40,155 nucleotides of DNA from IMG/VR virus record IMGVR_UViG_3300044940_000071, positions 1 to 40,155 of that record; one strand, written 5' to 3'. A program made the position numbers and the translations under genes. The stretch's first letter is position 1. The number at the start of each line of letters is the position of its first letter. Source of the stretch: a virus. Shown here piece by piece: positions 3,384 through 37,278 of the stretch. The notes under the pieces are model-generated. The model made no database searches. It was not told where the DNA came from and was given only the letters and a program-made list of their open reading frames with translations.

Positions 3384-3755
3384 TCATCTTTCTGTTTGCT
3401 TTTCAAAATACTCTTTTGCTTTTGGACAGTTATTTATTAACCATATTATATCCATTTGGTCGGGATTCAAAGACATGTAATACTCAAACCATTCATCCGT
3501 CTGCGCTTTCTTGCAGTTTGCAATAAACCAGGAGACATTCTCATAGCTCGGATTTAATGACTTGTAGTACTCAAACCATTCTTCAGTTTGAGCTTTTTCA
3601 CATTTTCTAATCAGCCATGAAACATGCCAGTAATGATTTCCATACTTTTCGATTTTTTCACCGGCATCAAATTCTCCTTCTGGAATTTTGTAATAATCAG
3701 AACACGGTTTTTCCAATAGGTCTTGTTTTGTGATGATTAATTTAGGAGGTTTCAT
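3384..3755 (-). CDS. 29-residue-repeat protein, short paralogue, 123 aa
   Basis: The N-terminal segment (PKLIITKQDLL, then GEFDAGEKI) is shared with the neighbouring 3763-4308 protein. Two full 29-residue repeats follow, each starting C(E/K)KAQT and containing EWFEYYxSLNP and a WLIxN-like end. A degenerate last unit begins CPKAKEYF. The repeat pattern suggests a solenoid of two helices per unit. I know no function for it. It is one of two tandem paralogues with different repeat numbers, placed between the replication protein and the exonuclease. The start is fixed by alignment to its paralogue (MKPPKLIITK). Confidence 0.75.
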   Translation of the reverse strand: MKPPKLIITKQDLLEKPCSDYYKIPEGEFDAGEKIEKYGNHYWHVSWLIRKCEKAQTEEWFEYYKSLNPSYENVSWFIANCKKAQTDEWFEYYMSLNPDQMDIIWLINNCPKAKEYFEKQTER

Positions 3756-3762
3756 ATTAATT

Positions 3763-4308
3763 CTATTTTTTAAATAAGTTTAGAAAGTATTTTTCTGCTT
3801 TTGGACAAACAGCCATTAGGTATCCGATATACCAATCATTAGGCTTTAATGACCTGTAATACTCAAACCATTTCTTAGTTTGTGCTTTTTTACAGACTGA
3901 AATTAACCGTGCGACATCCTTATAATCCGGCTTTAATGATTTGTAGTAATTAAACCACTCCTCTGTCTGTGCTTTTTTGCAGCATGCAATCAACCATCCG
4001 ACATTTAAATAATTAGGTTTTAATGACTTGTAATATTCGAACCACTCCTCTGTCTGTGTTTTTTCACAGTTTACAATCAATCTGGAGACAAATTCATAGT
4101 CTGGATTTAGTGATTTAAAACAATCGAACCACTCCTTTGTCTGTGCTTTTTTGCAGTTTATAATTAACCATAAAACATCGTCAATATCACCTTTGTGTCT
4201 TTTAATTTCCTCTCCAGCATCAAATTCTCCATCTGGTAGGTCGTTGTAATCATCGCAAGGTTCTGTAAGAAGGTCTTTTTTAGTAATGATAAGTTTAGGT
4301 AGCTTCAT
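3763..4308 (-). CDS. 29-residue-repeat protein, long paralogue, 181 aa
   Basis: After a 51-residue N-terminal segment (MKLPKLIITKKDLL, GEFDAGEEI) there are four full repeats at residues about 52-80, 81-109, 110-138 and 139-167. A degenerate unit starting CPKAEKYF ends the protein. The consensus unit is CxKAQTxxWFxYYKSLxPxYxxVxxLIxx. I choose the ATG at 4308 rather than an upstream in-frame TTG at 4332. It aligns with the start of the short paralogue and is preceded by an A-rich leader (AAATAAAGAAGAT). Function unknown. The repeat number differs from the paralogue (four against two), which suggests expansion by recombination. Confidence 0.75.
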   Translation of the reverse strand: MKLPKLIITKKDLLTEPCDDYNDLPDGEFDAGEEIKRHKGDIDDVLWLIINCKKAQTKEWFDCFKSLNPDYEFVSRLIVNCEKTQTEEWFEYYKSLKPNYLNVGWLIACCKKAQTEEWFNYYKSLKPDYKDVARLISVCKKAQTKKWFEYYRSLKPNDWYIGYLMAVCPKAEKYFLNLFKK

Positions 4309-4315
4309 ATCTTCT

Positions 4316-5122
4316 TTATTTAAAAAGTTCAATTCCTTTATCTAATAACTCTCCGGCTTTAATCACCTTTTCTTTAAGCAATTCTTTATCTTCCTGCGGA
4401 ACAGTAAATTCAATAAGAATTACATTATTCAGCTTTGATTCATCGGGCAAGTGAGGAAGTTTTTCGGCTTCCGACATCCAGAAGCGATAATACCGGCTTT
4501 TATCTTCCTCGTCCATAGAATACAGCATTTCCTTTATCTTTTCAATTTCATTTCTAAAAGGCATGTAAACGATAAACTCAATTACATCTATTCCGGTTAT
4601 GCAGGCATTGCTTACCATCTGCCAATAATACTTCTCACCGTCTTTATGATTGTTTCTGATATGCCGGATGGCTTCAATTCCTGTTAAACCTAAGATTTCC
4701 GGAAGTGAAAACGTTGCAAATGATTTGCGTGTATAAGGACATTTCAATTCAACAAGTTTCTTTTTGTTTTCAGCTTCATGTTTAAAAGCGTCCGGGCTGC
4801 CTGACCAGATATGACCTAATTCAGGATGAAGGAAAGTAACATCGCCAAGCAATTCGTACTGCTCGGAAAGTATGTTTTCAAAGACGTGTTTTTCACATAG
4901 CGAACCCCAATTCGTTTCCTGGCTGTCAGTGTCGGTTACGAGAGTTGCTCCTATTAACTTCTCAAGGTACTTTTCCTGAATATACGGAATGCCTTCCGTT
5001 TTACTAAACTCACTATTCTTTTCTCTGCCTTGTTTCATCAGTCGGTATATCTGGCTCGAAGTAAACCTGCCAAACCTCAATTTTTCAAATGTTTGCTGAA
5101 TTGTTTCCATTTGTTTGTTCAT
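4316..5122 (-). CDS. YqaJ-type phage exonuclease, 268 aa
   Basis: This is a PD-(D/E)xK nuclease of the YqaJ viral recombinase group, which chews one strand of double-stranded ends for the RecT partner. The active site shows as GSPDAF (about residues 107-112) followed by LVELKCPYT (about 122-130), giving the D...ExK triad. YYWQMVSNACITG near residue 165 fits the helical Gln motif of the family. The gene overlaps the end of recT by 38 nt, the usual pairing of a single-strand annealing protein with its exonuclease. Length is typical. Confidence 0.85.
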   Translation of the reverse strand: MNKQMETIQQTFEKLRFGRFTSSQIYRLMKQGREKNSEFSKTEGIPYIQEKYLEKLIGATLVTDTDSQETNWGSLCEKHVFENILSEQYELLGDVTFLHPELGHIWSGSPDAFKHEAENKKKLVELKCPYTRKSFATFSLPEILGLTGIEAIRHIRNNHKDGEKYYWQMVSNACITGIDVIEFIVYMPFRNEIEKIKEMLYSMDEEDKSRYYRFWMSEAEKLPHLPDESKLNNVILIEFTVPQEDKELLKEKVIKAGELLDKGIELFK

Positions 5123-6743: not shown

Positions 6744-7169
6744 ATGCCAAAAACTTTAATCGGTATTGACCCGGATACAGAGAAAAATGGTGTGGCTTGT
6801 CTTACGTCCGGCAAGCCTGAATCTTTAGAACTGTTCTCTTTCGATTTTTTTGAAACGTTGGACTTTATTAAAGCAAAAGACCCGGATGTGGTCTATATCA
6901 GCGCAGGCTGGCTGCATAAAGCTAACTTCAATGCCAAATCAAAAAACCTTAGAGTACAGGCACGGATTGGTCAATATATCGGAGCTAACCATCAGGTCGG
7001 TAAACTTATTCAGCAATTCTGCGAAAAGCAAGGCATCCACTACCTGCTTATCATTCCAACGCAGTCAAAGGTTGTAGAGCATGATTACTTCTGCGCTATT
7101 GCAGGAAAGAAATTCATCCGTACGAACCAAGACCAACGAGATGCTGCAATGCTTATTATAGGTCGCTAA
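6744..7169 (+). CDS. RuvC-like Holliday junction resolvase, 141 aa
   Basis: This has an RNase H-fold endonuclease pattern. LIGIDPDTEKNGVA at residues 5-18 carries the first catalytic Asp (D9). An internal VYISAGW strand follows, and the C-terminal NQDQRDAAMLII carries the late acidic residue expected of RuvC-type resolvases. It is shorter than bacterial RuvC (about 170 aa), as in some phage versions. It probably resolves branched replication or recombination intermediates before packaging, complementing RecT and the exonuclease. It is one of only three protein genes on the plus strand and starts at the divergent control region. Confidence 0.75.
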   Translation: MPKTLIGIDPDTEKNGVACLTSGKPESLELFSFDFFETLDFIKAKDPDVVYISAGWLHKANFNAKSKNLRVQARIGQYIGANHQVGKLIQQFCEKQGIHYLLIIPTQSKVVEHDYFCAIAGKKFIRTNQDQRDAAMLIIGR

Positions 7170-7201
7170 GTCGTTGTTAACAGAATTAAAACGGAATTGA
7201 T

Positions 7202-7209
7202 TATATTTG
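7202..7209 (+). promoter_or_regulatory. Promoter -7 element before the structured RNA
   Basis: TATATTTG matches TAnnTTTG exactly and lies about 5 nt before the first paired base of the RNA at 7215. No TTTG is found at the usual 21-nt spacing upstream (the nearest TTG is at 7174-7176), so it may need an activator or be weak. Confidence 0.6.
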
Positions 7210-7213
7210 CAAT

Positions 7214-7371
7214 GGCAACGCACCCGTAAAAGGGGTTTGGAACAGCCTCCCAAAACATTATCGGGGGAAGACCACTTGGTCTTCCGTAGGGGCTGCAAAA
7301 ATTCAAACATACTCTCCGAGTCCAAAGAGCTGTGACAAGGCCAGCTACGGAGGTCAATGGCGTTGCTTTTT
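7214..7371 (+). ncRNA. Structured non-coding RNA of about 158 nt, family unknown
   Basis: No reading frame in this stretch looks real, but it folds well. P1 pairs GCAACGC 7215-7221 with GCGTTGC 7360-7366 and encloses everything. P2 is the hairpin ACCC/GGGT (7222-7225 with 7233-7236). P3 pairs CAGCCTC 7243-7249 with GGGGCTG 7289-7295. P4 inside it is a perfect 8-bp hairpin GGAAGACC-ACTT-GGTCTTCC (7266-7285). P5 pairs CTCCG 7314-7318 with CGGAG 7348-7352. P6 pairs AGCTG 7328-7332 with CAGCT 7342-7346. TTTTT (7367-7371) follows P1 directly, as in an intrinsic terminator, and a TATATTTG element lies just upstream. I cannot assign a known RNA class. Confidence 0.7.
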
Positions 7372-7379
7372 ATTTATGA

Positions 7380-7442
7380 TAACAAATAAGCATCCAAAAC
7401 CAGACACCAAAAGCCTCAATTTCATATCTTTGTCCGAAACTT
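7380..7442 (+). promoter_or_regulatory. Phage-specific promoter repeat, copy 1
   Basis: The segment contains AACAAATAAGCATCCAAAAC, then CATATCTTTGTCCGAAACTT with a perfect -7 element TATCTTTG at 7425-7432. A close copy lies at 7712-7776 and a partial one on the minus strand at 39608-39579. No TTTG sits 21 nt upstream of the -7 element, so the shared upstream CATCCAAAACC box may replace the usual -33 contact. It should drive the 7494-7700 gene with an about 55-nt leader. Confidence 0.6.
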
Positions 7443-7493
7443 GATAATGCTACTACGCAAAACCATTTTTATTCAGAACAAAACTTAATTAAA

Positions 7494-7700
7494 ATGACAA
7501 CAAGAACAGTAATTAGCAAAAGTGCTAAAAGAAAAATGACATCAATGGTAGAATTTCCGATTGAAGTGAATGGTAAGGAACAAATGAAAAGAGTTATCCG
7601 ATACAGGGCGAATGACTTTACGGAACAAGTGGTTTACAGAACGAAACTTCCAAACGGAAAATATACCTCCATTACGAAGCACGAACTGGCACGGAAATAA
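7494..7700 (+). CDS. Small basic protein, 68 aa, unknown function
   Basis: A basic protein (starts MTTRTVISKSAKRKMTSM, ends KHELARK) with a probable central beta region (FPIEVNGKEQMKRVIRYRA). I recognise no family. It stands alone on the plus strand, has its own promoter (copy 1 of the repeat at 7380-7442) and is followed by a second copy at 7712-7776. It therefore looks like a small independently expressed cassette between direct repeats, as in phage morons. An anti-defence or host-control role is possible but not shown. Confidence 0.7.
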   Translation: MTTRTVISKSAKRKMTSMVEFPIEVNGKEQMKRVIRYRANDFTEQVVYRTKLPNGKYTSITKHELARK

Positions 7701-7711
7701 TGAATTTCGTC

Positions 7712-7776
7712 TAACAAATAAACATCCAAAACCATGACATTAAAATCCTTGCTTTTCATATCTTTGCCCGAAACTT
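7712..7776 (+). promoter_or_regulatory. Phage-specific promoter repeat, copy 2
   Basis: This is a near copy of 7380-7442, with the AACAAATAAACATCCAAAAC box and a perfect -7 TATCTTTG at 7759-7766. Positions 7747-7776 are identical over 30 nt to the minus strand at 39608-39579. No plus-strand gene follows. Transcription from here would run antisense into the 7783-8340 gene, the last of the lysis block. Confidence 0.6.
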
Positions 7777-7782
7777 TTTGTA

Positions 7783-8340
7783 TTAAAGTTCGCTGATAAA
7801 GGTTACGGTATTTACCGGAGCAACAATTTTTCCACCATAGTACGGAAACAAAAACAAACCTGCCATTGGCTTTGTTTTCACGTCAACATCAACAGTGAAG
7901 TTATTAACGCTGAAAATAAACTTGCCGGAAACATATCGTATTGAAGTGCGCAGGTCTTTAATATCTCCATCAAAGTCCTTCCAATGCAGCGTACAGATGA
8001 GTTTATCTTTCAGTTTCGTTCCGCCATCATACACATAACTCATCAGTTTCACTCCATCGGTCATTTTCTTTAGTCCTATCCGTGCTGAAGTATGATGAGG
8101 GTCTATGCCATAGGTGAAGCCCCAGATTTTATGCACGCAAGGATATTCATCCGTTCCGGCAACAAACTTCCATGAGGTCGTGATGGTAACCAATCGGCTC
8201 TCAAGCGTTGTTCCGTTGTGTGTAAGGATAGGATGGTTGCAATAATGACTGCCTTTTTTGATGGTGTACTTCATTTGCTTTTTCGTGAAGAGGTTTTTAA
8301 AAAACTGAATCACAGCTTTGAAGATTTCAGCTATATCCAT
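7783..8340 (-). CDS. Hypothetical protein ending the lysis/tail block, 185 aa
   Basis: The N-terminus is amphipathic (DIAEIFKAVIQFFKNLFTKK). The remainder is rich in beta strands and aromatic residues (HKIWGFTYGIDPHH, KLICTLHWKDFDGDIKDL) and suggests a beta-sandwich. I see no catalytic motif of known endolysins. The start overlaps the end of the DUF5675-like gene by 14 nt, so the two are translationally coupled. It is the last gene of the leftward late block. Its place after the probable holin genes makes it a candidate for an unrecognised lysis or host-surface-binding protein. That is inference. Confidence 0.65.
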   Translation of the reverse strand: MDIAEIFKAVIQFFKNLFTKKQMKYTIKKGSHYCNHPILTHNGTTLESRLVTITTSWKFVAGTDEYPCVHKIWGFTYGIDPHHTSARIGLKKMTDGVKLMSYVYDGGTKLKDKLICTLHWKDFDGDIKDLRTSIRYVSGKFIFSVNNFTVDVDVKTKPMAGLFLFPYYGGKIVAPVNTVTFISEL

Positions 8341-12205: not shown

Positions 12206-12254
12206 CTGTTGATAAATTCTTAAATAAAATATGCTTTTGTATAAAATTATTTTA

Positions 12255-12262
12255 TATCTTTG
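12255..12262 (+). promoter_or_regulatory. Promoter -7 element of tnpB
   Basis: TATCTTTG matches TAnnTTTG exactly and ends 4 nt before the GTG at 12267, so the tnpB message may be leaderless or nearly so. This also shows that the upstream in-frame ATG at 12231 is unlikely to be the start. Confidence 0.55.
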
Positions 12263-12266
12263 CATT

Positions 12267-13409
12267 GTGTTAAAAGCATATAAATATGAACTTTTGCCAA
12301 CAGCAGAGCAAAGCAATCGCATAAATCAGATTGTTGGCAGTTGCAGATTTGTGTATAATCTTGCTTTGGAGACAAAGATTTATGCCTATCAATCTCAAAA
12401 GAAGAGCATTTCCTGTTTTGAATTGATGAAGCAACTAACCGAACTCAAAGAGGATGAAAAAACAAAATGGCTCAATGATGCTCCTGCTCAAAGTTTGCAA
12501 CAGGCAATATCAAATTTAGATACTGCTTTTTCAAATTTTTTCAGAGGCAAAGCAAGTTTTCCAAAGTTCAAGAAGAAAAGAAACAAGCAATCATTCCGTA
12601 TTCCACAAGGCATTAAAGTTGATTTTGAAAATTGGAAAGTGTTTATTCCAAAATTAAAATGGGTTGAATTTTGCAGGGACAGAAAGTTCAGTGGTGAAAT
12701 AAGACAAGCAACGGTAACAAAAACTCCAACTAACAGATATTTCATTTCCATTCTTGTTGATAACAAAAAAGAGTTGCCGAAGAAAAAACCTATAAAAGAA
12801 AAAACCGCAATAGGAATAGATGTCGGATTGAAACACTTAGTAACCTTATCAAATGGAACTAAAATAGAAAATCCAAAGTATCTTTTCCATTCGTTGAAAC
12901 GATTAAGAATAGAGCAGAGAAGTTTGCAAAGAAAATATAAGAAAGGAAAAAAGTTCGAAGAACAAAGCAACTCATATAAAAAACAAAAATTAATAGTCGC
13001 AAGGTTATATGAAAAAATAAGTAATCAACGAAAGGATTTTCTACATAAACTATCTTCTGCGATAGTCAAGCAGTATGATACGATTTGTGTTGAAAATCTA
13101 AATATACAAGGAATGGTTCAAAACAGAAATTTAAGCCGTTCCATTTCAGATGTAGGTTGGGGTATGTTTATATCTCAACTTAAATATAAGACGGAATGGT
13201 ATGGTAAAAATTTTATACAGATAGGTAGATTTGAACCATCAAGCCGTTTATGTTCCTGTGGATATTGTAATTCAGAATTAAAATTGTCAGACAGGAAATG
13301 GGCTTGCCCTGAATGTAAAAAAACACACGACAGGGACATTTTGGCTGCGAATAATATAAAAAACTTTGGGCTTCGGACTAAGCCCTTGCTCGCTAATGTA
13401 GTTCATTAG
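12267..13409 (+). CDS. tnpB: TnpB RNA-guided nuclease of the IS200/IS605 group, 380 aa
   Basis: TnpB is a small guide-RNA-directed DNA nuclease. The N-terminus LKAYKYELLPTAEQ is the usual family start, and it favours the GTG at 12267 over the ATG at 12231. The RuvC-type active site is intact: D185 in IGIDVGLKH, E276 in CVENLN and D357 in HDRDILAANN. The zinc ribbon is complete, with Cys pairs CSCGYC and CPEC in front of the last Asp. No TnpA transposase is nearby, so the element cannot move by itself. It is plus-stranded between two leftward tail blocks and interrupts no gene I can see. It could be a passenger or a domesticated nuclease. Confidence 0.9.
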   Translation: MLKAYKYELLPTAEQSNRINQIVGSCRFVYNLALETKIYAYQSQKKSISCFELMKQLTELKEDEKTKWLNDAPAQSLQQAISNLDTAFSNFFRGKASFPKFKKKRNKQSFRIPQGIKVDFENWKVFIPKLKWVEFCRDRKFSGEIRQATVTKTPTNRYFISILVDNKKELPKKKPIKEKTAIGIDVGLKHLVTLSNGTKIENPKYLFHSLKRLRIEQRSLQRKYKKGKKFEEQSNSYKKQKLIVARLYEKISNQRKDFLHKLSSAIVKQYDTICVENLNIQGMVQNRNLSRSISDVGWGMFISQLKYKTEWYGKNFIQIGRFEPSSRLCSCGYCNSELKLSDRKWACPECKKTHDRDILAANNIKNFGLRTKPLLANVVH

Positions 13410-23498: not shown

Positions 23499-23502
23499 TT
23501 AG

Positions 23503-23572
23503 TTGCGGAGGCAGGAATCGAACCTACTACGTTCAGCGTATGAAACTGAATGAGTTCCAAACTCTCTCCGCT
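23503..23572 (-). tRNA. tRNA-like element, anticodon CAU, with reduced D-arm
   Basis: On the minus strand the acceptor GCGGAG (23571-23566) pairs with CTCCGC (23510-23505). The T-arm is canonical: GTAGG, loop TTCGATT, then CCTGC. The anticodon stem TCAGT/GCTGA carries a 7-nt loop TTCATAC, giving CAU (Met, or Ile if modified). The variable loop is 5 nt. Odd points are that base pair 1-72 is A-A, U8 is missing, and the D-arm (GAG-TTTGGAA-CTC) is short. No CCA is encoded. It fits exactly between the stop of the 23578 gene and the start of the 22929 gene, so it is cut out of the structural message if functional. Confidence 0.65.
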
Positions 23573-36519: not shown

Positions 36520-37278
36520 TTATTTGAGCGAGGGGGTCGGTGTAACCGCCATTTCCTGGCTGGAAGCCAAGCGACTTTTATTTAGTCCACCCTCGCATAT
36601 ATTCTTTTTTCGTTCTGCTAATGTAATCTTTTTTCCTTTATACATCCCAGCCCCCATTTCATCAATTTTTGAAAATGGTAAAATAGGAACGGTTATTTTG
36701 CAGGTTTTGTCAATTAGGTAAATGTAGCGGAATTGGTATCCTTCTACTTTTTTACTTCCTTCTGGAACGCCCGCCCTGCCGTTTTGGGATAATATATGTT
36801 TGCCTTTAGTGAAAGTCATACTTGCAACTCGCTTACCATTAGGCAATTCTATTATTGAACTGTTAGGTTTAATGGATGTTAGATAAAAACCGCTTGCTCG
36901 GTAAATAGCACCATCACCGCTTTGCGTTCCATCACTAAAGGATAAAATCCATTTTATGTGTGGTGCGTTTCTTTTTATTAGTTTTATGGAAATAGCAAGG
37001 CATCTGCTTTCACTATTTCTTGGTAAATAATCATCAAATGCCATACGGTTAAGTTCCAACATTTCATTCCACAAAGAAGGCTGTACCATCCCTAACACCT
37101 TTCTTTTATCAAAAGGGCTGCCGTATGAAATCACCCCGTGAAGTTTGCCGTCAAGGAAACAACCAAAATGTAGAGTGCTATTATTTACAACTTTCCCACT
37201 ATAATGATGCCTCTTTACAAACTCATTAGCAATCTTAGCGGGTATTACTTTAACGATTATTTCCTTTGCTCTGCCCAT
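36520..37278 (-). CDS. Mom-like adenine-modification protein, 252 aa
   Basis: It resembles the Mom family of GNAT-fold DNA modification proteins. Characteristic stretches are FVKRHHYSGKVVNNSTLHFG (about residues 19-38), VISYGSPFDKRK and LELNRMAFDDYLPRNSESR (about 72-91). The HIKWILSFSDGTQSGDGAIY region is at about 112-131. Mu Mom adds a methylcarbamoyl group to adenine and protects DNA from restriction. A similar role is inferred here. The gene overlaps the ParB-like gene by 22 nt and precedes the small terminase gene. Its C-terminal about 70 residues extend past the conserved part. Confidence 0.78.
   Translation of the reverse strand: MGRAKEIIVKVIPAKIANEFVKRHHYSGKVVNNSTLHFGCFLDGKLHGVISYGSPFDKRKVLGMVQPSLWNEMLELNRMAFDDYLPRNSESRCLAISIKLIKRNAPHIKWILSFSDGTQSGDGAIYRASGFYLTSIKPNSSIIELPNGKRVASMTFTKGKHILSQNGRAGVPEGSKKVEGYQFRYIYLIDKTCKITVPILPFSKIDEMGAGMYKGKKITLAERKKNICEGGLNKSRLASSQEMAVTPTPSLK

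Follow-up and report, generated by a model that had tools for sequence, protein, structure and literature searches.

A candidate stand-alone structured RNA with a promoter box and a terminator-like end in a phage of Bacteroidota

Some of the ornate RNAs known as GOLLD and ROOL are borne by phages, and both constitute widespread families whose members are several hundred nucleotides long. To our knowledge, few descriptions exist of structured non-coding RNAs from Bacteroidota phages. On the side of the bacterial host, Bacteroides thetaiotaomicron produces intergenic sRNAs (GibS, BTnc201 and others) that have a start site and an intrinsic terminator (PMC7366714). The element described here is similar to these sRNAs in its intergenic location, in the TAnnTTTG-type promoter that is expected for them and in its terminator-like 3' end. 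It differs in being phage-borne and known from its sequence alone, while the host sRNAs have been validated by RNA-seq or Northern analysis, and its 3' end is formed by a long-range closing stem instead of a compact terminator hairpin.

The plus-strand island and its sequence signals

The element was found in a single virus record of 40,155 bp, the whole of which was analysed (the window). Judged from its gene content, the record represents a tailed phage of Bacteroidota: its gene set includes RecT, an exonuclease, tail genes and a portal-like protein, and relatives occur in phages or prophages of Flavobacterium, Sphingobacterium and Bacteroides. Nearly all of the phage genes are carried on the minus strand; the element forms a small plus-strand island together with a resolvase gene, whose stop codon lies 45 nt before its start on the same strand, and a 68-aa ORF. 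The features of the island are as follows:

6744-7169, plus strand: RuvC-like Holliday junction resolvase (phrog_1770), upstream neighbour, outside the RNA
7202-7209, plus strand: promoter -7 box TATATTTG, a perfect sequence match to the Bacteroidota TAnnTTTG
7214-7371, plus strand: predicted RNA transcript of 158 nt, its start placed by the promoter spacing and its end by U5
7215-7221 / 7360-7366, plus strand: P1, 7-bp closing stem GCAACGC / GCGTTGC (pair probability 0.98-0.99 for starts 7210-7215)
7223-7234, plus strand: P2, predicted small hairpin CCC-GUAAAA-GGG
7235-7308, plus strand: P3 arm, closing a three-way junction (P3 pair probability 0.90)
7235-7241 / 7302-7308, plus strand: predicted P3 helix GUUUGGA/UUCAAAC
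7243-7248 / 7290-7295, plus strand: predicted P3 arm helix CAGCCU/GGGCUG
7249-7265, plus strand: P3a, predicted hairpin CCC-AAAACAUUAUC-GGG
7266-7285, plus strand: P4, perfect 8-bp hairpin GGAAGACC-ACUU-GGUCUUCC (in DNA GGAAGACC-ACTT-GGTCTTCC; pair probability 0.99)
7314-7352, plus strand: P5 arm (P5 pair probability 0.83)
7314-7318 / 7348-7352 and 7328-7332 / 7342-7346, plus strand: predicted P5 helices CUCCG/CGGAG and AGCUG/CAGCU
7367-7371, plus strand: U5 tract abutting P1, which gives a terminator-like 3' end
7494-7700, plus strand: 68-aa ORF without assigned function, downstream neighbour, preceded by a separate TAnnTTTG box at 7425

The initial annotation had placed the element between a resolvase and a moron-like gene. 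The first of these neighbours was confirmed; the second description was not, as a search for relatives of the 68-aa ORF found none. Similar promoter-like stretches (ACAAATAARCATCCAAAACCA ... TTTCATATCTTTGYCCGAAACTT) lie on either side of this ORF, at 7387-7450 and 7715-7790, as though a small cassette of ORF and promoter had been duplicated, and the latter stretch is directed into a convergent minus-strand gene (7783-8340).

Other features of the window were also recorded. Two adjoining genes (3384-4332) are built of degenerate 29-residue repeats (WFEYYKSLNP...), equivalent to 87-nt direct repeats. An intact-looking TnpB of the IS200/IS605 type is located on the plus strand (12231-13409) within the minus-strand block of structural genes, and its best plasmid relatives are proteins of methanogenic archaea, about 50% identical. 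A Mom-like DNA modification protein (36520-37278; phrog_1384, E 7e-50), whose gene adjoins that of a ParB-like protein, is likely to perform an anti-restriction base modification.

In Flavobacterium psychrophilum the -7 box spans positions -12 to -5 (PMC9723704), and the box at 7202-7209 therefore predicts an RNA start at 7214, one base before P1. The initial annotation was correct in reporting a perfect TAnnTTTG just upstream of the structure, TTTTT directly after the closing stem, and a stretch of 158 nt, which the promoter spacing reproduces. Its claim that the element has a promoter of its own and ends in a terminator-like way is upheld in part: the promoter is a sequence match with a fitting +1, and the U5 tract is present, but a scan for consensus terminators found no compact local hairpin at the 3' end of the element. 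The terminator-like end is indeed unusual, in that P1 closes a 138-nt interior and is then followed by U5.

A TAnnTTTG box with a 7-bp closing stem 4-6 nt further on and T5 immediately behind the stem appeared in 4 of 600 simulated Markov windows, and the same architecture with looser spacing in 9 of 200; these chance figures are indicative, as the settings were picked with the element in view. The GC content of the element is 52-53% (52.6%), against 24-31% in the adjoining intergenic stretches; the mean for the phage genes is 39.7%.

The predicted fold and its stability

All the structural parts named in the initial annotation, i.e. the 7-bp closing stem, the perfect 8-bp hairpin and further stems, are present (P1 and P4; P2, P3, P3a and P5). 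How they are arranged depends on the first base of the RNA. Starts at 7210-7215 give a four-way junction (P1 0.98-0.99, P3 0.90, P4 0.99, P5 0.83), and starts at 7205-7209 favour a rod-like rival fold (rod 0.59, P1 0.43), the probability of which drops to 0.07 for starts at 7210-7215. As the promoter predicts a start at 7214, the four-way junction is the fold expected of the promoter-made RNA; published promoter spacing can thus decide between two rival predicted folds.

Folded from 7215, the element reaches -55.5 kcal/mol, compared with -42.4 +/- 3.8 for dinucleotide shuffles (z -3.44; 1 of 200 as good), and its MFE is the third lowest among 1,600 windows of the same phage. The GC-corrected stability residual is about -2.1, with other windows, many of them inside genes, scoring better, and the minus strand folds nearly equally well (-55.6 kcal/mol, z -2.78). 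Taken alone, the stability of the element is not exceptional. It is marked out by its combined signals; folding energy alone would not suffice.

Searches for relatives and known RNA families

Only short matches were returned by blastn, scattered and of 22-43 nt against phages (E 6) and of 24 nt against plasmids (E 2), and exact-pattern scans of IMG/VR with the P4 hairpin, CTACGGAGGTCAATGG and GTAAAAGGGGTTTGGA gave matches that were attributed to chance by their context and by a covariance model. This model was built from the single sequence; it finds the element itself at E 3e-54 but may miss distant relatives. It detected no homologue in RuvC-neighbourhood phage loci or in 50 + 22 whole phage records (about 70), no true homologue in 23 genomes, and no homologue in 395 + 400 + 378 + 336 + 321 Bacteroidota genomes (about 1,850), these draws being partly overlapping samples of which the large sets were searched with stricter filters; near-identical records are possibly absent from the searched sets. 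Two weak full-length matches (L165 and L166) were rejected, both having E-values expected by chance at this search size and the latter also having many pairs broken.

Phages related through the resolvase or the 617-aa portal-like protein are without a matching element, and none of the several structured intergenic stretches inspected beside RuvC in other phages resembled it. The promoter/stem/T architecture was also sought in the relatives, with only weakly folding, mostly AT-rich matches. The element occurs as a single copy in the record, and we call it an orphan in the sense that it has no homologue within the searched sets.

In one related phage (L091:2372-3333) tRNA genes flank the RuvC-like gene on both sides, i.e. 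stable RNA genes adjoin the resolvase in one relative. The stretch beside RuvC in this phage was rejected as a counterpart, as it consists of the tRNA genes and of stretches without excess folding.

A covariance search of Rfam 15, one of the checks proposed in the initial annotation, gave no match at gathering thresholds across the whole window and only sub-threshold chance matches in the element region at E <= 10, which places the element outside the known Rfam families. ARAGORN reported no tRNA or tmRNA in the element; its only call in the window was a tRNA-Met (cat) at 23502-23572, on the minus strand amid structural genes. A 6S RNA was also dismissed, as neither the Rfam 6S nor the Bacteroidales-1 model matched and the predicted start gives a multibranch fold, not a rod. 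The earlier statement that the element is not a tRNA, tmRNA or 6S RNA therefore agrees with these searches. A TnpB guide RNA is unlikely from the gene order, the TnpB gene (12231) being 5 kb away, and no reverse transcriptase, as would be expected for a retron RNA, was found among the subset of phage proteins scanned.

Rival readings and comparison with known systems

The element is best read as a stand-alone structured RNA of about 158 nt that has a promoter of its own and a terminator-like end. Our results support this reading in part, and we consider it probable that the element is a genuine stand-alone RNA gene. Its main rival is a cis-acting role, in which the element would be a 3' UTR/terminator or attenuator that ends or protects the mRNA of the resolvase (or of the resolvase and the 68-aa ORF), with no separate RNA gene. 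The position on the same strand as the resolvase and a short way beyond its stop codon, the final U5 and the outcome of a search for a terminator between the resolvase and the element, which found none, are what one would expect of such a role. It does not account for a -7 box placed exactly for the stem base, nor for the separate box of the downstream ORF; moreover, bases upstream of 7210 shift the predicted fold to the rod, and five arms are unnecessary for a plain terminator. We therefore regard a purely cis-acting element as unlikely, while noting that a stand-alone RNA could in addition act as the resolvase mRNA's 3' end.

A chance origin, i.e. a well-folding GC-rich patch in AT-rich intergenic DNA next to a -7 box and a T run that are not in use, would be consistent with the GC-corrected stability of only about -2.1 SD, with the roughly 5% of windows that satisfy the looser architecture test and with the lack of homologues in the searched sets. 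Nevertheless, the exact register of +1 and stem, the T5, the shuffle-corrected stability and the GC contrast all co-occur, and we think chance quite improbable. The sharp GC contrast to the flanks, and the near-equal folding of both strands, could also indicate a DNA-level element or a passively gained GC-rich insert (a protein or replication site, or a mobile-element remnant) in which the RNA fold is incidental. CAATGGC, present at 7210-7216 and 7355-7361, resembles a target-site duplication, although a 7-mer repeat at such a distance is near chance and the putative duplication is out of register with P1. As the element is a single copy, has no similar DNA in the searched phages, plasmids and Bacteroidota genomes, and carries a plus-strand promoter box and T tract, both in register with its fold, this origin seems very unlikely. 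Least credible of all is a protein-coding remnant, suggested by a plus-strand frame that is open for 84 codons (7190 to 7441) and has a weak phrog_8277 match (E 0.02). The frame contains no ATG, GTG or TTG start, neither Pfam nor tblastn gave a match for it, and at 53% GC long open frames are to be expected; the phrog_8277 match is at chance level, since a search with this family also gives matches in unrelated control genomes. The codon log-odds of the element reach -0.22 at best, compared with 0.163 +/- 0.078 for the phage genes, and all six frames score below coding fragments of the same phage; the element looks non-coding in all of them, in agreement with the initial annotation.

If the element is a stand-alone RNA gene, the host primary sigma factor would use the TATATTTG box to initiate at about 7214. 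The transcript, folding from its first base, would form a compact four-way junction (P1, P2, the branched P3/P4 arm and P5), and its synthesis would stop at the U5 tract that abuts P1. The stable folded RNA might then be recognised by a protein, as the decoy or scaffold of a factor from either host or phage. The regulation of host or phage genes proposed in the initial annotation gained no support, in that pairing of loops and junctions to phage translation starts was not above chance (63 of 100 shuffled loops were as good). Because base pairs take up most of the RNA and its loops match no phage gene start above chance, we infer that a protein-bound decoy or scaffold is likelier than a classical antisense RNA; given a stand-alone RNA, action as a protein-bound folded RNA is a tentative assignment. 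It is doubtful, but worth stating, that the element might represent a new family of phage RNAs, lineage-restricted and folded as compact four-way junctions, that would be expressed in infection as decoys of a host protein or RNA-processing factor, which could, for example, blunt a defence or redirect transcription.

Compared with other described systems, the element has a length similar to that of the Bacteroidetes 6S RNA (Bacteroidales-1), and its rival rod fold is superficially 6S-like; unlike that RNA, it has no such Rfam match at E <= 10 and its favoured fold is the four-way junction, not the rod. As a small non-coding RNA candidate in a phage genome, it resembles the phage-derived small regulatory RNAs (reviewed in PMC12197685), from which it differs in having no known target, pairing site or phenotype. 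It is probably best regarded as an orphan candidate of this known kind, a phage small RNA, whose transcription and 3' end we infer. With the GOLLD and ROOL ornate RNAs (PMC12286853) it shares a complex, multi-branched architecture; in contrast to them, it is an orphan of only about 158 nt and, if transcribed, would constitute a compact, testable phage RNA gene without an Rfam match.
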